NCBI RefSeq assembly: GCF_000515395.1
Contig: NZ_KI911782.1
Span: forward strand, 4,272,697-4,336,696
Reading direction: 5' to 3'
From: Jiangella gansuensis DSM 44835
GTDB lineage: Bacteria > Actinomycetota > Actinomycetes > Jiangellales > Jiangellaceae
Length of the DNA stretch: 64,000 nucleotides
Translations under genes and position numbers: made by a program
The notes under the pieces: generated by a model
The model's database searches: none
What the model saw: only the letters and a program-made list of their open reading frames with translations
Told to the model about the DNA's origin: nothing
In this document: positions 8,354 to 51,142 of the stretch, in pieces
Numbering within the stretch: the first letter of the stretch is position 1
How the letters are laid out: every line of letters begins with the position of its first letter

Positions 8354-10867
8354 TCAGGAGGCCACGAAGATCGCTTCAGCGTCGTCGAACCAGACGTTGG
8401 CGCCCTCGGGGACTCCGGTCAGGACGGGGACGAACTGAGCGGTCGCCACGGCCCGCGCTGGGTCGGTGGGTGGGGCGAACTCCTCCACACTCGTGACCGG
8501 CCGCCAGGTGCCCTCAAGCGTTCTCAGCGCCAAGGATTCTCCGCGCACCGTTCCGACACGCTGGTTTGCGCTGTTGAAGAGGTTCAGGGCGAACTGGACG
8601 CTCGCCTCGCCCATGCCCGGATCGGCCTTCACCCAGAACTGCGATGCCAGGATCCCCGTCCCGACGGCGAGCGGCTGAATCGGTCCGCCACGCCCTACGG
8701 ATACCGACTGCAACGACTTGTTCCCGGAGCGGGATTGTGTGGTGGAGATGCTGAACTCGCCTGTATCGGTGACCCAGGTCGCCCAGCCGGCGAAGTCGGC
8801 TTCGAAGCCGGGGTTCGTGAAGATGTTGGCATCCGGCGAAAGGGCCGCCGTGATCACGTTGACCAGTCGTGTGAAAGACGGATGATCGTCGCTGTGGGCG
8901 GAGAGCCATTGGGTGACCTCGCCCCCAGATGGTTCGTGTGTTCGCATGAAGGTGATCAGCGCCCACACCGAATAGTGGTTGTACGCCGAGAGGCCGGTGA
9001 GTCCACCGCGGGTGGGATCGAGCGGTTGGACCAGCACGGGGTCGGTTCTTGCCTCGGCCAGCCAATCCGCGCGGCGGGTGACAAGTGCCTCACGGACGGG
9101 AAGCTCGTCGCGGACGGATTGGGCGAGTTCGAGCGCGGCGGCTGTGTCCCCGGGGACGGGTACCGGCCGGGGATACAGGCGTGCCGTGATGTCGTAGTAC
9201 TCGTGGGCCCTTGCGAGCGTCGTTGCGCGCTGTCGTTGGGCCGGCGGCGCCGTTTCGGCTGTGGCGACCACGTCGTCCATCAGAGACGCGGCTTGATCCA
9301 GGGTCGCGATGTCGACGCTGGAGAGGTAGCTGGGCGAGTCGAAGGGCTGATAGGTCCGGCGCCTGATGAACCATGGGCTCTGCGAGATCTGCGTCATCCA
9401 GACGTCTTCCCAGAGCCGGTAGTACGCGCTCAGCGACGCGGCGGCTTGATCGCCAACTGCCCGGCTGCACCATTCGTCGACCAGCGCGGTGACGTCGGCC
9501 CCGGGCTCCCAGAGCAGTCGCGAAACGACCCATGGCTTCGGGCCCTCACCCCAGTTGGGGTACAGCTCGCTGTAGTGATACCGCACGCCGACGTCGTGGC
9601 TTGTCGTGTAGACCTCACCCAGCAGCGACAGGTACATGCGAGGCACCGCGTACGGCGATCCGTAGAGGTAGTCGTAGGTGCCGAGCTCGGTGGCACGTTG
9701 CGACCACGCGAGCAGCTGGTCCTCCCGATACTGGCGCGTCACGGGGTCGACCCAGGCATAGCGATCCTCGGTGAGGAACGGGATCACCGACGGGTGGAGG
9801 TCGAAAGGCGGCGGCACTTCCAGCTCGTGGTAGGCGAGCAGGCCGAACTTCAGGTCCGGGTGCTGTGCGGTGACCCGTGACGTGACCTCGTTCACCCATC
9901 CGTAGTAGGTCTCCGGTATCGGCTTGCCGATCTCGTAGCTCGTGTAGGCGCCGTCGTTGACTCCCAGCGACACCGATCTGAGCGCCGGGTCCGCAGCTTT
10001 CATGGCGAGGATGTCGTCGACGACGATGTCAACGGTTTCAGGGTTGCTGAACGCAGGCTGCCAGCCGGTGACGACACCAGACGCGGGAACGATGCCGTTC
10101 GCGTACAGATCCGGCCGGTCGCCGTAGCGTGACACGGGGAAGAACGTGTGCAGGTTGTGATGGAACTCGACCGGCTTGTTGTAGTTGCCCTGGAGCCGAT
10201 TGCGTTGCGCCCACTCGTACTGTGCCGGGTACGGGCCACCAGTCCCGGGCTCGGCCAAGAGCGGGCTGAACATACGCTGGGAGAAGGCTGGCCGGGAACG
10301 CACGATACGAGGTGAGACCGAGATGGTCGATCTCTGGGGTACGTCCTCCCCGATGGCCGTCGGCATGAGCCAGGCGACGCCGACATAGCGCTCCAAGAAG
10401 TTGTAGACGCCGTTGAGCGTTCCCCATTCGTTGGCTCCCCTGATGGTGATGGTTCCGTCGCACGGCGCGATGACGTACTCGTCGTCGACGGACCTCCTCA
10501 GGAGCCCTGATAGCGCTGAATGCGAACTCGGCCCGGCGAAGCCGACGTAGATGGCGGTGAGGCCACCCGGCAGCGCGTCGGACGGCAGGCTGGCGGTCGG
10601 CAGAGTGACGCCGGTCGACTTGGCGATGAAGGTGACGAGCTCGTCAGCGGCGTGCCGCACCGCATCGGTCGCGTCGTCTTCGGTGACGACCACCGCTCGA
10701 GCCTCACCGCCGTCCACGACAAGCAGGTCAACGGCGGAGGTCGCGGCAGCGGACGTGGTGGTAGCGAACACGAGTCCGCTCGCAGCTGCCGCGGCCCCTG
10801 CTCCGCCGATGGCGAGGGCCTGCCGGCGGGAGAAGAGGCGGGGGCCGGATCGTGGATCGAGCGACAT
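8354..10867 (-). CDS. Tat-exported DUF4838 protein with C-terminal carbohydrate-binding-like domain
   Basis: An 837-residue protein. The N-terminus has a twin-arginine signal (FSRRQALAIGG, then an Ala-rich core), so it is exported folded. Residues about 45-160 resemble the non-catalytic N-terminal domain of GH20/GH67 enzymes. The middle is DUF4838-like (TYDYLYGSPYAVPR, SELYPNWGEGPKPW). From about residue 680, NPGFEADFAGWATW starts a CBM4/9-like beta-sandwich. It is paralogous to the protein at 17074-19620. GGAGGT precedes the ATG by about six bases. A CCTAGG operator lies 102 bases upstream. A glycan-binding or glycosidase role is inferred. Confidence 0.85.
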   Translation of the reverse strand: MSLDPRSGPRLFSRRQALAIGGAGAAAAASGLVFATTTSAAATSAVDLLVVDGGEARAVVVTEDDATDAVRHAADELVTFIAKSTGVTLPTASLPSDALPGGLTAIYVGFAGPSSHSALSGLLRRSVDDEYVIAPCDGTITIRGANEWGTLNGVYNFLERYVGVAWLMPTAIGEDVPQRSTISVSPRIVRSRPAFSQRMFSPLLAEPGTGGPYPAQYEWAQRNRLQGNYNKPVEFHHNLHTFFPVSRYGDRPDLYANGIVPASGVVTGWQPAFSNPETVDIVVDDILAMKAADPALRSVSLGVNDGAYTSYEIGKPIPETYYGWVNEVTSRVTAQHPDLKFGLLAYHELEVPPPFDLHPSVIPFLTEDRYAWVDPVTRQYREDQLLAWSQRATELGTYDYLYGSPYAVPRMYLSLLGEVYTTSHDVGVRYHYSELYPNWGEGPKPWVVSRLLWEPGADVTALVDEWCSRAVGDQAAASLSAYYRLWEDVWMTQISQSPWFIRRRTYQPFDSPSYLSSVDIATLDQAASLMDDVVATAETAPPAQRQRATTLARAHEYYDITARLYPRPVPVPGDTAAALELAQSVRDELPVREALVTRRADWLAEARTDPVLVQPLDPTRGGLTGLSAYNHYSVWALITFMRTHEPSGGEVTQWLSAHSDDHPSFTRLVNVITAALSPDANIFTNPGFEADFAGWATWVTDTGEFSISTTQSRSGNKSLQSVSVGRGGPIQPLAVGTGILASQFWVKADPGMGEASVQFALNLFNSANQRVGTVRGESLALRTLEGTWRPVTSVEEFAPPTDPARAVATAQFVPVLTGVPEGANVWFDDAEAIFVAS

Positions 10868-14805: not shown

Positions 14806-15477
14806 ATGGGCTCTAGCGTCGCGGACAAGATCACCGAGTATATCCGCCGAGAGTCGCTCGTCGAGGGTGATCCGCTGCCCTCCGAGTCCCGCCTCGCCGA
14901 CGAGTACGGCGTCAGTCAGCGGGTCGTCCGGGACGCGCTGCGGCTGCTGAGTCAGCAGGGCGTGATCTGGACCCGCCAGGGCAAGCGCGCGGTGGTCAGT
15001 AGCCTGCGCCCGGTCGGAGTTCTCGGCTACTTTCAGCATGCGGTGGCTGGTGACTCGGAGGCGATCCACGAACTGCTGGAGCTCCGTCAGGCCATCGAGA
15101 CCCGAGCGGCCGGGAGCGCTGCGCCGCGCCTGAGCGCCGAGGATCTCGCCAAACTGTCCGAAATTCTCGACCAGGCCGAGGCCGAGGACGTGACGTCCTC
15201 GTCGCGAGTCGATCTCGACCTCGCCTTTCACCGGTCCATCGTCCGGCATTCCGGCAACCGGTTCTTCGACGCGATCCTCGAAGTGCTCACCGCCACGCTC
15301 ACCGAGGAGCGGCGGCGCGGCCAGGAGCTGACCGAGCACGCCGGCGGCACCCACGAGATCAGCGACCGCGAGCACCGGTCGATTCTGCGGGCGCTGGAGG
15401 CTCGAGACAGTTTCCTGGCCGAGCAGGCCATGCGCGCCCACCTCGAGCGGGTGCGGCAGACCTTCCAGGCCATGTGA
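14806..15477 (+). CDS. GntR/FadR-family transcriptional regulator, likely controller of the island
   Basis: About 223 residues. Residues 1-70 form a winged helix: EYIRRESLVEGDPLPSESRL, then DEYGVSQRVVRDALRLLSQQGV and TRQGKRAVV. From about residue 85 a helical FadR-type (FCD) effector domain follows (LLELRQAIETRAAG, LDLAFHRSIVRHSGN, DREHRSILRALEARD) with the metal-binding Asp/His pattern. The start is uncertain: ATG 14806 gives a compact domain, while GTG 14734, ATG 14728 and GTG 14725 lie behind GAAGGG. FCD regulators bind short palindromes and respond to carboxylic or sugar acids, fitting the repeated CCTAGG sites. Confidence 0.88.
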   Translation: MGSSVADKITEYIRRESLVEGDPLPSESRLADEYGVSQRVVRDALRLLSQQGVIWTRQGKRAVVSSLRPVGVLGYFQHAVAGDSEAIHELLELRQAIETRAAGSAAPRLSAEDLAKLSEILDQAEAEDVTSSSRVDLDLAFHRSIVRHSGNRFFDAILEVLTATLTEERRRGQELTEHAGGTHEISDREHRSILRALEARDSFLAEQAMRAHLERVRQTFQAM

Positions 15478-15494
15478 CCTGTCGCGCCGATCTC

Positions 15495-15510
15495 CGCCCC
15501 ACACGGGGCG
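15495..15510. terminator. Short hairpin between convergent genes
   Basis: CGCCCC and GGGGCG are separated by four bases. The hairpin lies in the 42 bases between the gntR stop and the stop of the leftward oxidoreductase gene and could serve both. There is no clear T-run. Confidence 0.4.
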
Positions 15511-15519
15511 TGCGGACGA

Positions 15520-16857
15520 TCAGGCGGTCACGTGGTCGCTCAGTTCGATCCAGCGTTGTTCCCGCATCGACCGGTCCGCGGCGAATCCGAGCAGATGCCC
15601 GGCGACGGAATCGTCGAGTGTGGTGGCGGAGATCGACGGATCTTTGTGCCGGACGATGTCGACGAAGTCCTCGACGAGCCGCATATCGCCGCCGCCATGC
15701 ATCTCGCCCTTGATGTCGAAGCGGACGTGCTCCTCCGCGTACTCATGACCGGGCCTGGCGTCGAAGGTGCGCACGACGAAATGCCCATCCTCGAGAACGC
15801 CCTCGATCTCGCCTTTGGTGCCGACGATCTTGATGGTCCGGCACGGCTTGGCGGTGTTGCCGACGACGTTGAGGGTGGCGGTTGCCCCGTCGGTGAACTC
15901 CACCATGACCGATTGATGGTCGACGACCGTGTTGTCCGCATGCCACACGCAGCGGCCGAAAGGACTGTCGTTGCGCAGAGACGCCAGCTTGTCCTCGTAG
16001 GAGGGTTTGCCGTCCGGGCGTTCGATCGGTTGCCAGGCGTAGACGCCCCACAGGTCCTGGTCGATGTAGTTCTTGCGCGCCGAGTAGGGACAAGCGGACT
16101 CTATGGAGCAGTCGACCAGGCAGCGGGTCCCCGCGCCGGCAGGCGCCCGCTCGGCTCGGAAGTACGACCGGTCACCGAAGCTGGTGACCCGTCGCGGCGG
16201 GATCCCGCTCTTCATCCAGACCAAGAGGTCCAGGTCATGGCATGACTTCGCCATCAGCAGGGACGATCCGCTGACCTCCGCGTTGCCCCACTTGCCACGG
16301 ACGAAGCCCACGGCCATGTGGTGGTAGCTCACATGCTCGGCCAGCTGCATGTTGATGATGTCGCCGATCTCACCGGCGGCGAGTCGCTCCTTGATCCGCA
16401 CATAGAAGGGGGCGTAGCGCAGGACGTGGCAGATGAGCACTGTTCGGCCGTATCGGGTGGCTTCGCGCTGGAGGGCCATGACGTTTTCGGCGGACGTGCT
16501 GATGGGCTTCTCGAGCAAGAGGTCGTAGCCGCCCTTCAGTAAGGGAACGGCGGTCGCGAGATGAAGATCGTCCATCGTGGCGTTGATCGCGACGTCGGCG
16601 ATCTTGCCGTGCGCGATGAGTTCGTCCACCGAGTCGAACCGGTGGGCGGCCGGCACGCCGAAGCGTCTGGCGGCCTCGCTCTGCCGGAGGGGGTTGGGAT
16701 CGACTACTCCGACGATCGCGAGGTCGTCGGGCGCAGTCGTGGCGTACGTGGCGTAATGCAAGCCTCTGTGCCCGGCACCGACGATCACCGCCCGCAGCGG
16801 GCCGGTCGGCAAGCTCGACTCCGGCGGCCGGCGATAGGCGGTGAGTTCATTAGACAT
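15520..16857 (-). CDS. Gfo/Idh/MocA-family oxidoreductase
   Basis: A 445-residue NAD(P)-dependent oxidoreductase, longer than usual. AVIVGAGHRGLHYATYA is the nucleotide-binding loop and LLLEKPISTS the intact Glu-Lys-Pro motif. AKSCHDLDLLVWMKSG is the C-terminal catalytic His/Asp region. A Cys-containing insert (VDCSIESACPYSARKNY) follows and is common in sugar-degrading subgroups. ATG at 16857 is preferred, with GTGGAG about ten bases before it; the frame extends to 16908. It has its own promoter and a CCTAGG-type operator. Confidence 0.87.
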   Translation of the reverse strand: MSNELTAYRRPPESSLPTGPLRAVIVGAGHRGLHYATYATTAPDDLAIVGVVDPNPLRQSEAARRFGVPAAHRFDSVDELIAHGKIADVAINATMDDLHLATAVPLLKGGYDLLLEKPISTSAENVMALQREATRYGRTVLICHVLRYAPFYVRIKERLAAGEIGDIINMQLAEHVSYHHMAVGFVRGKWGNAEVSGSSLLMAKSCHDLDLLVWMKSGIPPRRVTSFGDRSYFRAERAPAGAGTRCLVDCSIESACPYSARKNYIDQDLWGVYAWQPIERPDGKPSYEDKLASLRNDSPFGRCVWHADNTVVDHQSVMVEFTDGATATLNVVGNTAKPCRTIKIVGTKGEIEGVLEDGHFVVRTFDARPGHEYAEEHVRFDIKGEMHGGGDMRLVEDFVDIVRHKDPSISATTLDDSVAGHLLGFAADRSMREQRWIELSDHVTA

Positions 16858-16913
16858 CGAAGGCTCCACTTCGGTTGGCAGATGACTGCGCCATGTCTGA
16901 ACGGACAAAAGGT

Positions 16914-16927
16914 AGGTCCTATGTTAG
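16914..16927. promoter_or_regulatory. Candidate GntR operator, second oxidoreductase gene
   Basis: AGGTCCTATGTTAG has a perfect left half (AGGTCCTA) and a weaker right half. It lies 57 bases before the oxidoreductase start at 16857. Confidence 0.5.
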
Positions 16928-16980
16928 CGGATGGCTCCGCCAAAATAGAGCGCAAGCACACTGAGAGTGGCGCCTGGTCG

Positions 16981-16994
16981 AGGACCTAGGACCC
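16981..16994. promoter_or_regulatory. Candidate GntR operator, second DUF4838 gene
   Basis: AGGACCTAGGACCC is almost identical to the site at 7061-7074. It is followed at once by TTGACG, a possible -35 element, and lies 80 bases before the ATG at 17074. Confidence 0.65.
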
Positions 16995-17073
16995 TTGACG
17001 TATCTAGAGCTCGCCCACATACTCGGGGATCGGCACGTACCAACGTGCCTCGGATCGATCGTGGGAGGTTGGG

Positions 17074-19620
17074 ATGGAAGCCGACGCTCAGGGCAGAAGT
17101 CGACCATCGCGCAGAAGCGTCCTGGTAGCCGGAGGCGTCGGCCTGGCCGCAAGTGGCCTGTTGGCGGGTGAGGCATTCGGAGCGGTACGCGACTCGAGCC
17201 GGAGTGCCGCCGCGCTCACCATCGTCGACGGCGGGCTGGCGTACGCAGTCGTGGTGGTGCACAGTGGCGCCTCCGCAGAGGTTCAGGAGGCAGCCGCGGA
17301 GTTGGTGTCATACGTCGAGAAGTCGACGGGCGTGACATTGCCGGCTGTTCGCTACCCGGACGAGCCGGTCCCGGAGGGTATGGTCAAGATCTACGTGGGC
17401 TTCACCGCTCCGGGCGCACATCCGTTGGGCCGGAGACTGCCTGAGCGAATTCGTCATGACGGCTTCTGCATTCTTCCCGCCGACGATTCGATCACCATTC
17501 TCGGATCGAGCGACTCACCTGACCTCGGCACTCGCAACGGGGTCAGGGCGTTCTTGGCGCGGTACCTGGACGTGGCTTGGCTGATGCCCACGGAGGTGGG
17601 CGACGATGTCCCCGAGCGGGACAGCGTGGTGGTGTCGTTGCGGCCGGTCCACGACGAGCCGGCCTTCGCGCAGCGCGTGTTCAGTCCGCTGAGCAGAGAC
17701 GATGGGCCATATACCGAGCAGTATCTGTGGGCGCGAAGAAACGGGTTGCAGGCTAGTGTCGGCGATGGGCGTCCTGATTACTTCATCGCCTTCCATCACA
17801 ACCTCTACAGCTTGTTCCCGGTCGACGAGTTCGGCGAAACCCATCCCGAGTTCTACCCGAACGGAAAGCCGCCTCCGCCCGGAAGTCATGCGGGGTGGCA
17901 ACCCGTGTTCTCCGAGCCCGGGACGATTCCGGTCGCGGTCGAGAAGATCAAGCAGCACTTTCGGGACAATCCGGCGTCCGCCTCGTTCTCCTTGGGGGTC
18001 AACGACAGCGGCGGATTCGCCGAGGTAGATCCTGTGGAGCCCTACTACAGCTGGGTGAACGAGGTCGTGACGCAGGTGACGGCAGAGTTCCCGGACAAAT
18101 GGTTCGGCCTGCTGGCGTACGTGCAGCTGGAGGAGCCGCCGCCGTTCGCCCTGCACCCGCGCGTCGTTCCGTTCTTCACCCAGGACCGACTGGTCTGGGC
18201 CGACGCGACGGCGAAGGCCGACGCCCAGGCCAAGTTGGATGTGTGGGCTGGGATCACGTCCCAGCTCGGGTTCTACGACTACCTCTACGGATGCCCATAC
18301 GTCGTACCGCGGGTCACTCCCCACCTCGGTCAGGAGGTCTACACCTATGCGAAGGAGATCGGCGTCATCGCTCACTACGCCGAGCTCTATCCGAACTGGG
18401 GAGAAGGCCCGAAGCCGTGGCTGCGGGCGAAGCTGCTGTGGAACCCTGCGCAGGACGTCGACGCCCTGCTTGACGAGTGGTGTATCCGGGCGGTGGGAGC
18501 CGAAGCCGCGCCACATCTTCGGGAGTATTACGCGAACTGGGAGAGCTTTTGGACCGAGCGGGCGGTGGCCACCGCGTGGTTCAACCCCAGTGCCACCTTT
18601 CAGGCGTTCGGTGACGCCTCCTACCTCGAGGCGGTCACCGATGCCGACATCGCCGAGAGCCGTCGTCTCATCGACGAGGTCGTCACACGAGCGGTCACCG
18701 CGCCGCAGCGCACACGTGCGGAGAAGCTCGCCCGAGCCCACGAGTACTACGACCTCAGCGCGCGGACATACCCACGCGCCGTCCCCGCGCCGGCCGACTC
18801 GGCGGCCGCGGTGACCTTGCTCGAGACCATCGAGGACACCTGGGAGGAGCGCCAACAGCTGGCTGAGCGCCGGTTGGACCTGATCGACGAGTACGACAGC
18901 GACCCCGTGCTGGCACACGTGTGGAAGCCGTCGGCCGTCGGCCTGCTATGGGGAGGCTGGAACAAGTCGGAGTTCTGGGGGCTCGCCGACTACCTGCGCG
19001 ATCACGAGCCGTCGGGTGGGGCAGCAACAAGCTGGCTGGAAGCTCGCGCCGGGTCGGAAGGGGCCAGTCAGTTCACGCAGTTCGCGCAGCTGTTGTTGGG
19101 TCTGCGGGCGGGGACGTTGTCTACGCTCACGCAGAACTGGTCGTTTGAAGACGGGCTCGGGCAACCGCCCGGCTGGAGCCTCTGGATTGCTCGGCTCGGC
19201 GCGAACGCCCGGTTCAGTGCGCAGGCGGGGGTAGCACACACCGGCACTGCCAGCGTGAACGCGCGAGCCATCGGCCGCGGCGGCCCGAACCAGGTGATCC
19301 AAGTCGTGCCCGGCCTCCTCGCCACCCGGGCACACGTGCTCGCCCCTAGCGGTACCGAGTGGCGAGGCACGGTGGGCGTCACGATGAATCTGCGGGACGA
19401 AGCCGGCACGCAGATCGGCCAGTTCCGCGGACCCATCATGCCCGTGGCGCCGCGAGCCGGAGCATGGTTCACCGTCGACAGCATCGATGTCGTTCCGGAG
19501 GATATCGACGGGCGGGCGGTCAAGGCGGTCCAGTACGTCCTCGTCATCGACGGCTTTCAGGACGACCCCGGATTCTTGTACATCGACGACATCGTCGCGT
19601 ATCAGGCGCCGGCGTTCTAA
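17074..19620 (+). CDS. Tat-exported DUF4838 protein with C-terminal carbohydrate-binding-like domain (paralogue)
   Basis: An 848-residue protein homologous along its length to the one at 8354-10867. Both share the Tat signal (PSRRSVLVAGG), the early DGGLAYAVVVV segment, HHNLYSLFPV, LGVNDSGG, YDYLYGCPYVVPR, ELYPNWGEGPKPW and DHEPSGGAAT. The C-terminal beta-sandwich begins near residue 685 with NWSFEDGLGQPPGWSLW. GGGAGG precedes the ATG by about six bases. Two diverged secreted copies under the same operator type suggest related but different glycan targets. DUF4838 proteins have no settled activity. Confidence 0.85.
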   Translation: MEADAQGRSRPSRRSVLVAGGVGLAASGLLAGEAFGAVRDSSRSAAALTIVDGGLAYAVVVVHSGASAEVQEAAAELVSYVEKSTGVTLPAVRYPDEPVPEGMVKIYVGFTAPGAHPLGRRLPERIRHDGFCILPADDSITILGSSDSPDLGTRNGVRAFLARYLDVAWLMPTEVGDDVPERDSVVVSLRPVHDEPAFAQRVFSPLSRDDGPYTEQYLWARRNGLQASVGDGRPDYFIAFHHNLYSLFPVDEFGETHPEFYPNGKPPPPGSHAGWQPVFSEPGTIPVAVEKIKQHFRDNPASASFSLGVNDSGGFAEVDPVEPYYSWVNEVVTQVTAEFPDKWFGLLAYVQLEEPPPFALHPRVVPFFTQDRLVWADATAKADAQAKLDVWAGITSQLGFYDYLYGCPYVVPRVTPHLGQEVYTYAKEIGVIAHYAELYPNWGEGPKPWLRAKLLWNPAQDVDALLDEWCIRAVGAEAAPHLREYYANWESFWTERAVATAWFNPSATFQAFGDASYLEAVTDADIAESRRLIDEVVTRAVTAPQRTRAEKLARAHEYYDLSARTYPRAVPAPADSAAAVTLLETIEDTWEERQQLAERRLDLIDEYDSDPVLAHVWKPSAVGLLWGGWNKSEFWGLADYLRDHEPSGGAATSWLEARAGSEGASQFTQFAQLLLGLRAGTLSTLTQNWSFEDGLGQPPGWSLWIARLGANARFSAQAGVAHTGTASVNARAIGRGGPNQVIQVVPGLLATRAHVLAPSGTEWRGTVGVTMNLRDEAGTQIGQFRGPIMPVAPRAGAWFTVDSIDVVPEDIDGRAVKAVQYVLVIDGFQDDPGFLYIDDIVAYQAPAF

Positions 19621-43188: not shown

Positions 43189-43189
43189 A

Positions 43190-43433
43190 GAAGCGGCAGC
43201 CCGCATGAACGGGATCGATGAGATCGTGTTGTCGCTGACTGCCAACGGCCGGACCATCGGTGAGGTCTCCGCGCACTTCGACGAGGTCTACGGCGCGAAG
43301 GTGTTCAAGGACACGATCTCAGGGTCGCGGACAAGCTCGTCGGCGAGATGACCGAGTGGTGCGCCCGGCCACTTGGCTCCGTGTATCGGGTGATGTTCAT
43401 CGACGTCATTCACGTGAAGATCCGCAATGGTCG
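43190..43433 (+). pseudogene. Degenerate fragment of an IS256-type transposase
   Basis: The fragment reads NGIDEIVLSLTANGRTIGEV, then HFDEVYGAKVFKDTIS. These match residues about 120-190 of the intact transposase at 58-1326 with high identity. A one-base loss near 43320 shifts the frame; the continuation TEWCARPL and VMFIDVIHVKIRNG lies in another frame. Both ends of the gene are missing. The fragment abuts the stop of the leftward HxlR gene. Confidence 0.85.
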
Positions 43434-43435
43434 GC

Positions 43436-44098
43436 TCAAGCGCCGTGTCGGTGGCGATCACCGGCGACGTTGAACCAGCGCGGAAACGCTGCAGCGAGCT
43501 CGCGGTTTCCGCTCACCCGCAGCGAGCCGAAGTGCAGGATGTGCTGCCACGTCGTGTCCCCGCCTACATAGGCGGCCAGGCACGAGGCGTCCACGGTCAT
43601 GGTGAGATCGACGTCGTGGCCGGGGTCGCTGATGCAGAGGTCACAGGTCCCGAGCTGGCCGTCGATCACCATCCAGAACCGGCTGAGGCCGTCGGCGGAG
43701 CCGGCGACCCGAAACGCGACCACCACGCGTCGTGCCGGTACATCGGTGAGGACCGCCTGCTGTCGAAGCGTCCACAGCAGGTCGCCGGCGTTCAAGGTGT
43801 CGGTCTCGCAGCTGAAGCGGTTACCCCACGCGGTCATGGCATCGAGCACCGGCTTCAACTGCTGCCCTGAAGGGGTCAACGCATAGCCATGATCGGAGCG
43901 GGTCACCACACCCACCCGTTCGAGGTAGCGCAGGCGGCGGAAGAGCACGGTCGGCGACATCGTCGGCAGGGATCGGCGCAGGTCGTTGAAGCGGCACCGC
44001 CCGTGCTGCAACTGGTGGACGATCGGCACGGTCCAGCGTTCGGCCAACACGTCCGCACAGGTCATCACGGCGCAGAGCTCGCCGTACTCCTCCTCCAC
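43436..44098 (-). CDS. HxlR-family regulator with SCP2-like C-terminal domain
   Basis: A 220-residue protein. Residues about 10-95 are an HxlR winged helix (CADVLAERWTVPIVHQL, RFNDLRRSLPTMSPTVLFRR, LERVGVVTR). The C-terminal part from about 125 (RFWMVIDGQLGTCDLCISD, then DASCLAAYVGGDTTW) resembles sterol carrier protein 2 domains and may bind a small lipid-like ligand. GTG at 44098 is chosen because the upstream frame is unrelated to the family. Its 3' end touches the transposase fragment, so its last residues may be altered. Confidence 0.82.
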   Translation of the reverse strand: MEEEYGELCAVMTCADVLAERWTVPIVHQLQHGRCRFNDLRRSLPTMSPTVLFRRLRYLERVGVVTRSDHGYALTPSGQQLKPVLDAMTAWGNRFSCETDTLNAGDLLWTLRQQAVLTDVPARRVVVAFRVAGSADGLSRFWMVIDGQLGTCDLCISDPGHDVDLTMTVDASCLAAYVGGDTTWQHILHFGSLRVSGNRELAAAFPRWFNVAGDRHRHGA

Positions 44099-46756: not shown

Positions 46757-46930
46757 CTGACCGGCTGCGCTCACACCGCCTCGGCCGAGATCCTCGTCAG
46801 CCACACCGCCGCCATCCTGCAGCGGCTGGAACTGGCCGAATCGGACACGATGGCATCGTTGGACGAGGCGACCGGCACCGTTCGGATAGCCGTATTCCAG
46901 TCGGTCGCTATTGCGCTGATGCCCGAACCG
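46757..46930 (+). pseudogene. LysR-family regulator remnant
   Basis: The frame ASAEILVSHTAAILQRLEL, then TGTVRIAVFQSVAIALMP, matches the junction between the DNA-binding and effector domains of LysR regulators. No helix-turn-helix part and no effector core remain. It fills the 276 bases between the TetR gene and the SelA-like gene. Confidence 0.6.
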
Positions 46931-46963
46931 GGAGGGTACTCGGTGGTAGTGCGTCGCTGCAGG

Positions 46964-48076
46964 TCAGAGTGTCGTTGTGAGGTGATCGCGTAGCCGCTCG
47001 GCGACGTCCGGGACGTCAGCGTCGCAGAGGTTGAACGGGTTGACGACGAGTGCTCCTGGCGGCGGTTCTTGGTGGAGGGCGATGGGTGGGTCGGCGTCGA
47101 TGAGTCCGCGCTGGACGGCGGCCGCGATCGCAGTCGCGTTCTCGTGGTCGATGGTGACGAGGATGCTGGGGATGCGGAAGGTGTGGTCGTCGTGTTCGAT
47201 GGTGGCGGTGACGTGGGGGAGCCGGGTGAGACCGGCGACGATGGGTTCGAGGCGTGCGCGGTAGGTGCTCATCAGCCCGTCGTGGTCGGTGTTCAGTGCC
47301 TCTCTTACGGCGGCATGGAGTCCGGCGATGGTTTCGCGGCTGACCTTGTGCGGTCTTCCGAGTTCGATGTTGGGGCTGGCGAGCGTGCGGGCGATCTCGA
47401 TGAGGTCGCGTCGGCCCGTGAGGATGCCGCTGTTCTGCGGGCCGCGGAGGTACTTTCCGCCACTGAACTGGACGAGATCGGCGCCGCTGGCGGTGAAGGC
47501 CGTCAAGTTCGCCATGGGTGGCAGGGCGCCCGCGGCGTCGACGATGACGGGCAGGTCGTGTCGGTGGGCGACGCGGACCATGGTGTCGAGGTCGAGGCCG
47601 CGGGATGGGCCGGAGACCACGTGGAGCACTGCGATGGTGCTGGGGTCGGCGGCGGCGTCGAGGTCTGCCGGGCTGGTGTGCTCGGCGGTGCCGATCCAGC
47701 GCAGGTGGGCGCCGGCCAGGGTGGGTAGCCGCGTGAACGGGTTCTGGTGGGCGCGCTGCACGATGACGTGGTTGGGCGGGCGGGTGTGGCCCGGGAGGGC
47801 GCGAACAGCGGCGGGGTCGTGCCGGGCCAGGCAGGCGGCGGTGGCCAGGACCACTGCGCTGGCCGCGCCGCTGGTGACCATGGCGGCTTCGGCGCCGGTG
47901 ACGGTGGCCAGGTAGCGCCCGACGGCGTCGTTGAGTTCGGTGACGTCGACAAAGTCGTGAGAGGCGTCGATCATGGCCGCTTGGACGGTGTCGGTGAGCC
48001 GGGATCCCCCGTATCGGGTGTTGGTCCCGGCGGCGTTGATGACGCGCCGTACGGCCAGGTCGTCGTAGATGGTCAT
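46964..48076 (-). CDS. SelA-like PLP-dependent enzyme
   Basis: A 370-residue PLP enzyme related to selenocysteine synthase SelA and DgaE/D-glucosaminate-6-phosphate ammonia-lyase-type proteins. RRVINAAGTNTRYGGS opens the protein, GAEAAMVTSGAASAVVLA binds the phosphate, VIVDAAGALPP holds the PLP Asp and VQFSGGKYLRGPQNSG the Schiff-base Lys. No selC-type gene or selenoprotein was seen nearby, so an amino-acid or amino-sugar lyase role is more likely. It follows a truncated sugar permease by seven bases. Confidence 0.85.
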   Translation of the reverse strand: MTIYDDLAVRRVINAAGTNTRYGGSRLTDTVQAAMIDASHDFVDVTELNDAVGRYLATVTGAEAAMVTSGAASAVVLATAACLARHDPAAVRALPGHTRPPNHVIVQRAHQNPFTRLPTLAGAHLRWIGTAEHTSPADLDAAADPSTIAVLHVVSGPSRGLDLDTMVRVAHRHDLPVIVDAAGALPPMANLTAFTASGADLVQFSGGKYLRGPQNSGILTGRRDLIEIARTLASPNIELGRPHKVSRETIAGLHAAVREALNTDHDGLMSTYRARLEPIVAGLTRLPHVTATIEHDDHTFRIPSILVTIDHENATAIAAAVQRGLIDADPPIALHQEPPPGALVVNPFNLCDADVPDVAERLRDHLTTTL

Positions 48077-48083
48077 TCGATGG

Positions 48084-48647
48084 TCATCCTTGGAGTCCGG
48101 AGCGAACGAAGGCGGAGATGATGGAGCGCTGTGCGACGAGGTAGAGCAGGAGTGGTGGGAGCAGTGTCAGCAGGGTGGTGGCCATGAGCTCGCCCCACAG
48201 TTGTGCTCCTTCGAGATCCGACGCCATGAACTGCAGGCCGATGGGCAGCGTGCGGGTGTCGATGTCGGTGAGCACAGTGAGCGGCCACAGGTAGGCGTTC
48301 CAGCCGGAGACGAAGTAGATGACGGTCACGACGGCGATGGCCGGCCGGGTGATGGGCAGGATGATTCGCCACAGGGTGCTCCAGCTGCCGGCTCCGTCGA
48401 GGTGGGCGGCCTGAACGAGGTCGATGGGGATCTGCAACATCGCCTGGCGCAGGAGGAAGATCCCGAAGCCGCAGAACGCGAGGCTGGGCACGATGACGCC
48501 TTGCGGTGTGTTCACCCAGCCGAGGTGGGAGATGGTGACGAAGTTCGGGACGAGTGTGACGATGCTCGGCGCGATCATCGTGCCGATGACCAGCAGGAAC
48601 AGGAGCCGCTTGGCCGGGAGGGTGAAGAACGCGAAGCCGTGGGCGAA
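48084..48647 (-). pseudogene. 5'-truncated sugar ABC importer permease (UgpE/MalG type)
   Basis: About 188 C-terminal residues of a CUT1-type permease remain: LFLLVIGTMIAPSIVTLVPN, FLLRQAMLQIPIDLVQAAHLDGAGSW, the EAA-like loop, and FVSGWNAYLWPL. The N-terminal 80 or so residues are missing. The frame runs in phase into the tail of a serine recombinase at about 48648, so a chimeric start exists but is unlikely to give a working transporter. The binding protein and partner permease are absent. Confidence 0.8.
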
Positions 48648-48654
48648 TCCCTCC

Positions 48655-48953
48655 TCGGACACGCCCAAACCCCCGCCTTGGTCAACATCTACTCTGACCA
48701 GGCGCGGGGTTGGTTCATAAGTCAGTCGTAGGCGAGGGCGTCGTAGATTTCGACGCGTTCCTCGGCCGTGGCGCCGCCGAGGGCCTTCGTGATTCCACGA
48801 GCTGATCGACAAATGTCGCGATGTCGGCCTCGGTCACATCTTGGAGTTTGCTCGTAGCTTCGTCGCATTTCAGCGTGCGCTGGTCGATCTAGCGGTCCAG
48901 GTCGCTGATGCGTTCTCGCAGGTCCGTCACTCGGGAGTTGTGGGTTTCGGCGT
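48655..48953 (-). pseudogene. C-terminal remnant of a large serine recombinase
   Basis: Read leftward, RVTDLRERISDLDR (then a stop) and DEATSKLQDVTEADIATFVD give the coiled-coil part. A shifted frame gives AEERVEIYDALAYD, and another LRLTYEPTPRLVRVDVDQGG. These are typical of the C-terminus of serine integrases. The catalytic domain is missing and at least one stop and two frameshifts are present. It adjoins the truncated permease, marking an old insertion. Confidence 0.65.
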
Positions 48954-49876: not shown

Positions 49877-50869
49877 TCACAGTGTCGGGGGCAGGTCCAG
49901 CCATGGTTTGTCGGTGGCGTCGAATCCGGTGAGCTCGGCGATCTTCCCGTCGGCGATGTGCAGGACCGCGATGGCGAATAGCCGGTACTCCGGGTCGTCG
50001 GGGGTGCGCAGGTACAGCACGGCGGCAGGCATGCGGTTGACCGTCGTGGTGGTACCGCGCCAGTCGTCGTAGCCTCGCTGGAAGAGCCCACCGGAGACCC
50101 AGCCGTCCACCGCATCCTTGGCCGTCGTGGTCAAGGTGCCCGGCTCGGGCAGCATTGCGAAGCGCAGGTCGTCGCGCAGCAGGGACATCAGCCCGTCGAG
50201 GTCGTTGCGCTCATGGGCGTCGATGTAAGACTTGACCACGCCGCGCTCGTCGTTCGACAGCTCGGGGCTCCGCCAGTCGAGGCGGCGGTCGGGCAGCTGC
50301 TCGTGCATCGTCACGCGCGCCCGCTGCAGTGCGCTGGTCACCGATGCGACGGTCAGCTCGAGGGCGTCGGCGGCCTTCGACGCCGGCCAGCCGAGGACGT
50401 CGCGCAGGATGAACACCGCCCGCTGCCGCGGCGGCAGGTGCTGGACGGCGACGATGAACGCCAGCTCGATCGTCTCCCGCGCCACCACCGATTCCTGCGG
50501 GTCCTCGGGGAGCATCCGGTCGGGGTACGGCTGCAGGTAGAGCACCTCCGACAGCTCGGACGGCACGGGTGTGCGGTTGTTGCGCTTCTCCAGGAAGTCG
50601 AGGCAGGCGTTCGTCGCGATGCGGTACAGCCACGTACGCAGCGCAGCGTGGCCCTTGAACGACTCCCGCTTGTTCCACGCTCGCAGGAACGTCTCCTGCG
50701 TCATGTCCTGGGCGTCCTCGTAGTTCGCGAGCATCCGGTAGCAGTGCACCTGCAGCTCACGCCGGTGGCGCTCCGTGATGAGCGCGAACCGCGCCGTATC
50801 GCCTGAGCGAACCGCCGCGATGAACGTGGCCTCGTCGGCGCCCAGGGGTCTAGCGTCGGTCATGGTCAT
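49877..50869 (-). CDS. ECF sigma factor with SnoaL-like C-terminal domain
   Basis: A 330-residue extracytoplasmic-function sigma factor. Region 2 is YRMLANYEDAQDMTQETFL and RTWLYRIATNACLDFL; region 4 is LPPRQRAVFILRDVLGW and ALELTVASVTSALQRARV. From about residue 205 a SnoaL-type fold (YIDAHERNDLDGLMSLL, DWRGTTTTVNRMPA) replaces an anti-sigma partner, as in large ECF groups. ATG at 50869, or 50863, follows GGAAGG. The open frame extends upstream into an SDR remnant but that part belongs to another family. Confidence 0.88.
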   Translation of the reverse strand: MTMTDARPLGADEATFIAAVRSGDTARFALITERHRRELQVHCYRMLANYEDAQDMTQETFLRAWNKRESFKGHAALRTWLYRIATNACLDFLEKRNNRTPVPSELSEVLYLQPYPDRMLPEDPQESVVARETIELAFIVAVQHLPPRQRAVFILRDVLGWPASKAADALELTVASVTSALQRARVTMHEQLPDRRLDWRSPELSNDERGVVKSYIDAHERNDLDGLMSLLRDDLRFAMLPEPGTLTTTAKDAVDGWVSGGLFQRGYDDWRGTTTTVNRMPAAVLYLRTPDDPEYRLFAIAVLHIADGKIAELTGFDATDKPWLDLPPTL

Positions 50870-50929
50870 CAATCCTTCCACCGGTGCGAGAGGGCTACCA
50901 GAACTGACGACGTGGCGGAGGACTTCTGA

Positions 50930-51142
50930 TCGGTGAAGGCCGCTCGATCCCGGCGTTGTCGACCCGATGTCGATCGGGCCGAGCGCGTCGACGGCGGAGA
51001 CGACGGCGTTCGCGACGTTCTGGCTGTCGGTTACGTCGCAGAGCGCGACGTGCGTCTTCCGCTCAGCGGTGGCCCGACCGATGCAGCTGCCGGCTCCCGT
51101 GATGAACACGGTCTTGTCGGTGAAGTCGAAGGTGATGGGCAT
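50930..51142 (-). pseudogene. Short-chain dehydrogenase remnant in frame with the sigma factor
   Basis: FDFTDKTVFITGAGSCIGRA is an SDR cofactor loop; THVALCDVTD and VSAVDALGPIDI follow with internal deletions, and the catalytic Ser/Tyr/Lys part is absent. The frame stays open into the sigma factor gene at 50869, so a computed gene call could fuse the two. Confidence 0.6.

Follow-up and report, generated by a model that had tools for sequence, protein, structure and literature searches.

A headless CUT1-type permease beside a serine-integrase attachment core in Jiangella gansuensis: a probable internal boundary of a decayed tRNA-Leu(GAG) island array

In the stretch of the Jiangella gansuensis DSM 44835 genome analysed here (the window, 64,000 nucleotides, C1:4272697-4336696), an integrase remnant, the tail of a permease and, after 7 nt, a gene for a 370-residue SelA/DgaE-like protein follow one another on the minus strand (Table 1). 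This arrangement raises the question of what event took the front of the permease and left its end in frame with a recombinase. The original prediction held that a recombinase event had beheaded a sugar transporter operon, leaving a fossil of integration or excision and an enzyme without its importer. Comparison with related genomes favours a different history, in which the stretch is probably an internal boundary of a decayed tRNA-Leu(GAG) island array, with the permease stub fused to it by a deletion inside an attP arm.

Table 1. Features of the permease-integrase junction and the adjoining gene, in window coordinates.
Feature	Coordinates	Strand	Basis
SelA/DgaE-like PLP enzyme, apparently intact	46964..48076	-	TIGR01437, NF047797 and PF03841 scores; invariant D180 and K208
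UgpE-like (CUT1) permease, C-terminal ~184 residues and stop, headless	48084..48638	-	PF00528, UgpE model, homologue starts
Putative attP left-arm remnant, 15 nt, GTGGGCGAATCCCTC	48639..48653	+	Identical to the arm of the first G001 junction (L056)
Attachment core CTCGGACA, common to the tRNA-Leu(GAG) 3' end	48654..48661	+	Comparison with relatives
Large serine integrase, decayed C-terminal end	48655..48916	-	blastn and tblastn against relatives

The surroundings of these features include other fragments. At 43189-43438 there is a fragment (about 250 nt) of a transposase gene of the IS256 (Mutator) type, 91% identical to the copy at 58-1326. Beside the enzyme gene, a scrap at 46772-46942 (plus strand), which we take to resemble part of a LysR-type regulator, has no Pfam match. 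An ECF-type sigma factor with a SnoaL-like domain is encoded at 49877-51142 (minus strand), and its frame stays open upstream, where a putative short-chain dehydrogenase would begin.

The permease tail matches PF00528 (E 7.5e-16) and positions 99-279 of the 281 in the UgpE profile (NF008210), so that about 98 N-terminal residues are absent by this model; its score of 123.9 bits misses the curated UgpE cut-off of 297. It thus resembles UgpE/CUT1 permeases over the C-terminal two thirds, but differs from them in having neither head nor partner genes: no full-length CUT1 permease with a partner permease and a binding protein is present at the locus, and what lies upstream is integrase debris. Permease homologues, with a match in 41 of 393 genomes, were examined at the loci of 29 (those listed are 39-46% identical), and in these the homology begins at about GFAFF (48638). 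Together with the two profile matches, these starts bear out the predicted truncation of a CUT1-type permease. The last 184-188 residues do run in frame with the integrase tail, as had been proposed, in an ORF at 48084-48812 (minus strand) whose 242 codons are open from a TTG at 48812 and span both the permease tail and the integrase debris.

Intact transporter genes joined elsewhere to the missing permease start would give the break another meaning, and these were sought with a permease-head model built from 14 sequences and run against the organism's own genome. The model identified 53 places, 52 of them with a tail in the list and the last with a tail found by reading. As all 53 heads have tails, no spare head was found in the genome at the sensitivity of this model. 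An apparent orphan head at C1:1791380 was rejected, since its own tail follows directly (the PF00528 list covered 150 of 174 candidates). Viral contigs contained no relatives of the permease.

The integrase scrap matches no Pfam model; resolvase, recombinase and zinc-ribbon domains are absent, and the C-terminal end alone is left. Its identity is instead given by relatives. Of 59 relatives, nine contain integrases that align with the scrap once its breaks are bridged (lowest E 3e-16), and window 48639-48829 has 70-79% DNA identity to integrase 3' ends at eight of nine relatives' loci (blastn; the shortest match is 63 nt, and L047 has no DNA match), which confirms the recombinase remnant that had been predicted. 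A full-length relative from G017 (L048, 559 aa, with PF00239, PF07508 and PF13408) matches window 48647-48916 weakly by tblastn (32%, E 5e-4), and searches against plasmids and phages gave no matches to the scrap.

The integrase end can be recognised by eye to about 48950. Because the scrap is in three pieces, with a TAG, a TGA and frame changes, the integrase is dead, and judged by its sequence it is a remnant and not a functional member of the large serine integrases. Just before the attachment core the window is 2 nt shorter than four relatives' loci (L054, L055, L056 and L058), and this difference puts the reading frames of integrase and permease in register. Their fusion in frame looks like an accidental by-product.

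The position of the junction can be defined from the relatives. A core, TCCC.CCTCGGACA, is common to window 48648-48661 and to the relatives' junctions of integrase and tRNA-Leu(GAG); at L055 (G006), L048 (G017), L050 (G012) and L047 (G016) the integrase genes abut the tRNA 3' end at this core. In the window, the integrase gene likewise abuts a core like that at the relatives' tRNA-Leu(GAG). Rfam gave zero matches over the window at gathering scores; the organism's own tRNA-Leu(GAG) is found at C1:4262607-4262692 (plus strand), and the window core, at C1:4321350 (plus strand), lies 58.7 kb downstream of it in equal orientation. A second integrase C-terminal remnant is present at the own tRNA (L174:8651-9028; 38% to residues 431-559 of the L048 protein). 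It reads into the tRNA, and the two together occupy C1:4262607-4263030 (L174:8608-9028), 10 kb to the left of the window. Pfam detected no conjugation genes beside this tRNA. Close behind it are two DUF4838 proteins (L174:12523-15120 and 15434-17956), to which the window ORFs at 8354-10867 and 17074-19620 look similar by eye, as a candidate likeness, and close behind the tRNA-adjacent integrase remnant is a DNA alkylation repair enzyme (PF08713; L174:9984-10652).

The same layout recurs in five relatives. Non-tRNA junctions are located downstream of tRNA-Leu(GAG) at 20.6 kb in G001, 23.4 kb in G009, 7.9 kb in G002, 9.0 kb in G021 and ~8.7 kb in G015 (this last distance being derived from where the match falls, on the assumption that the locus has its usual 1,500-base flank). 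Their orientation equals that of the tRNA in six of six genomes, the own genome included, and the own spacing is larger than the 7.9-23.4 kb of the five relatives. The core is therefore repeated in one orientation, with an integrase beside each copy, both at the own tRNA and junction and in the five relatives. More broadly, integrase sequence occurs within 500 nt of tRNA-Leu(GAG) in 11 of 16 flanks (tblastn), comprising eight of 12 from the genus and three of the four from other genomes of the family (G012, G016, G017 and G021); the flanks without it are those of G001, G003, G005, G008 and G021. For G015, G018, G019 and G020 the tRNA was located, with the flank outside the 16-flank count. Up to C1:4395700 there is no further exact CTCGGACA core, and when the tRNA flanks of relatives were set against the own region, no common native right flank emerged. 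The GC content of 4-kb blocks differs little, being slightly lower between tRNA and junction (0.64-0.71) than outside (0.68-0.73). This small difference, the lack of a further core, the larger own spacing and the absence of conjugation genes beside the own tRNA weigh against the array reading.

On these comparisons, tRNA-Leu(GAG) is a serine-integrase hotspot with tandem accretion, in the genus and in its family. Given that the relatives' core abuts tRNA-Leu(GAG), and that the own tRNA and five relatives show an equal layout, we take the junction most probably to be an att site in the interior of a tandem serine-integrase array that has decayed.

The sequence between core and permease has a counterpart in one of the relatives. 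The 15 nt to the left of the core are all identical to the arm of the G001 junction (L056), with 15 matches in the last 20 nt; farther out, at positions 21-46, agreement falls to 8 of 26. The next-best place for the G001 arm in the window, on either strand, matches over 9 nt. Each of the seven remaining non-tRNA arms agrees with the window at 6-11 of the last 20 positions, and the tRNA itself at 9, in an ungapped comparison in which the G009 arm lacks one base. The reading as a putative arm remnant thus depends mainly on one of eight non-tRNA arms, and its part outside the tRNA-core-like stretch is GTGGGC alone. The left arms of G001 (L056) and G009 (L057) resemble each other along 46 nt (78%, E 3e-4), and past that length no convincing similarity is seen. 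In reverse they appear similar to the P' side at the tRNA, as the two halves of an attP would be.

The residues encoded at the joint indicate where the permease ends and the arm begins. The window permease frame reads Gly-Phe-Ala-His before GFAFF, where homologues have, for example, Leu-Thr-Ala-Tyr. The residue directly before GFAFF is Tyr in 29 of 29 homologues and His in the window; the second before it is Ala in 28 of 29, and also in the window. Gly (-4), Phe (-3) and His (-1) are seen in none of the 29 homologues, and all three are encoded by the arm. Because of these three residues, the permease DNA most likely starts at 48638, just outside the arm remnant; the homology may extend one to two codons into the arm, as the Ala at -2 fits. 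The 15-nt arm identity, with permease sequence right beyond it, favours a deletion inside the arm over a clean integration into the permease.

The main rival, and the account closest to the original prediction, is nonetheless direct integration at a pseudo-attB in the permease gene, which would join a permease half to a P' half, with the remaining element and operon lost later. Serine integrases are described as using pseudo-attB sites, as PhiBT1 does in Nocardia, in an excerpt of PMC5937489. Such an event would account for a permease break that falls at the att core and for the Ala at -2 that agrees with the permease consensus, and it gains from the fact that the left half is matched well by the attP arm of one relative alone. 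It would also predict that the native permease carries GTGGGCGAATCC, or something near it, at the joint codon. The identity of that half to the G001 arm, where the tRNA attB agrees at only 9 of the last 20 nt, tells against it, as do the misfitting residues at -4, -3 and -1 and the place of the junction in tandem behind tRNA-Leu(GAG), like those of five relatives. We regard this account as rather unlikely, at something above one chance in five.

Deletions are common in such islands, and the fragments nearby (the IS256 piece and the scrap beside the enzyme) would suit a chance deletion that joined the permease stub to integrase debris with no link to an attachment site. The break, however, lies no more than 15 nt from an att core whose definition came independently, from relatives, and coincidence of this kind is distinctly improbable. 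An artefact of assembly deserves almost no credence in a one-contig genome of 5.59 Mb that is 99.93% complete with 1.3% contamination.

A history that begins with elements bearing a large serine integrase is therefore to be preferred, on balance, and may be proposed as follows. Such elements would have entered in tandem at the 3' end of tRNA-Leu(GAG), and the integrase gene of each would have come to lie immediately next to an attachment core. The ~58.7 kb between the tRNA and window position 48654 would then represent the proximal element or elements, if their limits are drawn correctly, and the integrase scrap from 48655 onwards would be the start of the next. The permease tail and the SelA-like gene would be cargo carried at the far end of the proximal element, where a deletion may have taken the rest of the sugar operon together with the outer attP arm, fusing the permease stub to the att site. 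The end of this deletion would be ~12-15 nt from the presumed crossover centre. One speculative route, to which we give little probability, is that the joint was an integrase double-strand cut left unreligated, trimmed by a dozen bases and end-joined to a distant end. If that were true, serine integrases would have a means of removing adjacent cargo and eroding tandem arrays; among the papers listed for deletion and end joining at serine-integrase attB sites, none concerns a bacterial array.

The predicted link between the fossil and integration is thus upheld, since the permease break is at an integrase attachment site. The beheading of the operon stands in part: the scar is integration-linked, but a single insertion into a living operon is not supported, and in view of the core, the tandem tRNA layout and the arm it is replaced here by wear at an array boundary.

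The SelA-like gene is intact, as was originally stated, being full length with the SGGK motif kept and with D180 and K208 invariant in a 12-row family alignment. The protein exceeds the cut-off of the broad PF03841 model (50 bits, cut-off 22.8), and falls under those of TIGR01437 (184.6 bits, 385.3), NF047797 (155.9 bits, 600) and TIGR00474 for SelA (60.5 bits, 267.9), so that by these thresholds it does not qualify as DGL, as a member of the wider DgaE family or as SelA. Among solved structures, 8t7j (E 1e-40) and 7lc0 (E 6e-33) are closest to it in sequence; both are members of the SelA-like PLP family with near full-length alignment, in which the SGGK-type lysine is aligned with a lysine. 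K208, presumably the PLP lysine, aligns with Lys-213 of 7lc0; the DGL paper, as excerpted, names Lys-217 (PMC9529869). In contrast to DGL, the enzyme does not conserve His-162/His-163 or the Arg-301/332/346 cluster (alignment to 7lc0), the three arginines of which were placed near the phosphate by docking in that paper. A DGL function was rejected on the cut-offs and on these residues, and by sequence the enzyme belongs with the SelA/DgaE-like PLP enzymes.

An intact counterpart of the pair was sought among the enzyme's relatives. A search of genome contigs with exact 8-residue patterns gave 40 pattern matches and no tblastn relative, and hence no close relative, and an alignment scan gave at least 541 relatives, and the top 80 of these (32-46% identical) were retained. 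With 13 others these provided 93 loci, many of them short contigs, and 15 of the 93 have a permease match at E 1e-5 or better. Among them, L131 alone has a co-directional permease match whose end is no more than 100 nt upstream of the enzyme relative; within 3 kb upstream, L088 and the locus of the organism's own paralogue (L028) also do. None of the 93 loci contained an intact orthologous permease-enzyme operon.

The genome contains two paralogues of the enzyme, 40% identical to it. One of them, DgaE-like and situated at C1:2703618, comes after genes for a solute-binding protein, two permeases and a member of the enolase superfamily; its locus (L028, C1:2698413-2710600) encodes the solute-binding protein, the permeases, the MR/MLE enzyme, the paralogue, a GH4 protein and two BadF-type ATPases. 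The claim that the enzyme was left without an importer is accordingly right for the locus itself, where there is none, and does not extend to the genome, since this paralogue has a binding protein and two permeases at C1:2.70 Mb. PF00528 is matched at least 150 times in the own genome (of 174 candidates, 150 were scored); given these matches and the paralogue's transporter genes, the substrate may enter otherwise.

The locus has parallels among known systems. With the integrative elements of the Mycobacterium group (PMC3218068, in part) it shares a serine recombinase and a tRNA-Leu target, and it differs in showing integrase scraps and cargo, with no replication or transfer genes seen; the likeness is at the level of tRNA-Leu and of serine recombinases in general. 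Tandem AICEs in Frankia and Streptomyces, described in the same source, and SGI1 arrays, which arise by tandem accretion at one site (excerpt of PMC2297512), likewise have several att cores in one orientation with an integrase beside each. Here, by contrast, the array is decayed and the permease-att joint apparently lies inside an attP arm. A search for literature combining serine integrase, tRNA-Leu, genomic island and tandem found no paper; no claim to a first report is made.

Tandem tRNA integration and serine recombinases in tRNA-Leu are, from the excerpted account, already known in actinobacteria (PMC3218068), to which this locus adds one more example. Integration of serine recombinases into tRNA genes was called rare there in 2011, and a tRNA-Leu(GAG) serine-integrase hotspot is for that reason of some note. 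The enzyme shows why caution is due before SelA/DgaE-like proteins are annotated as glucosaminate lyases. The locus itself is an ordinary genomic-island scar that is unusually easy to read, and in place of a vague fossil it offers a placed event, with the break in an attachment site that is definable from relatives.
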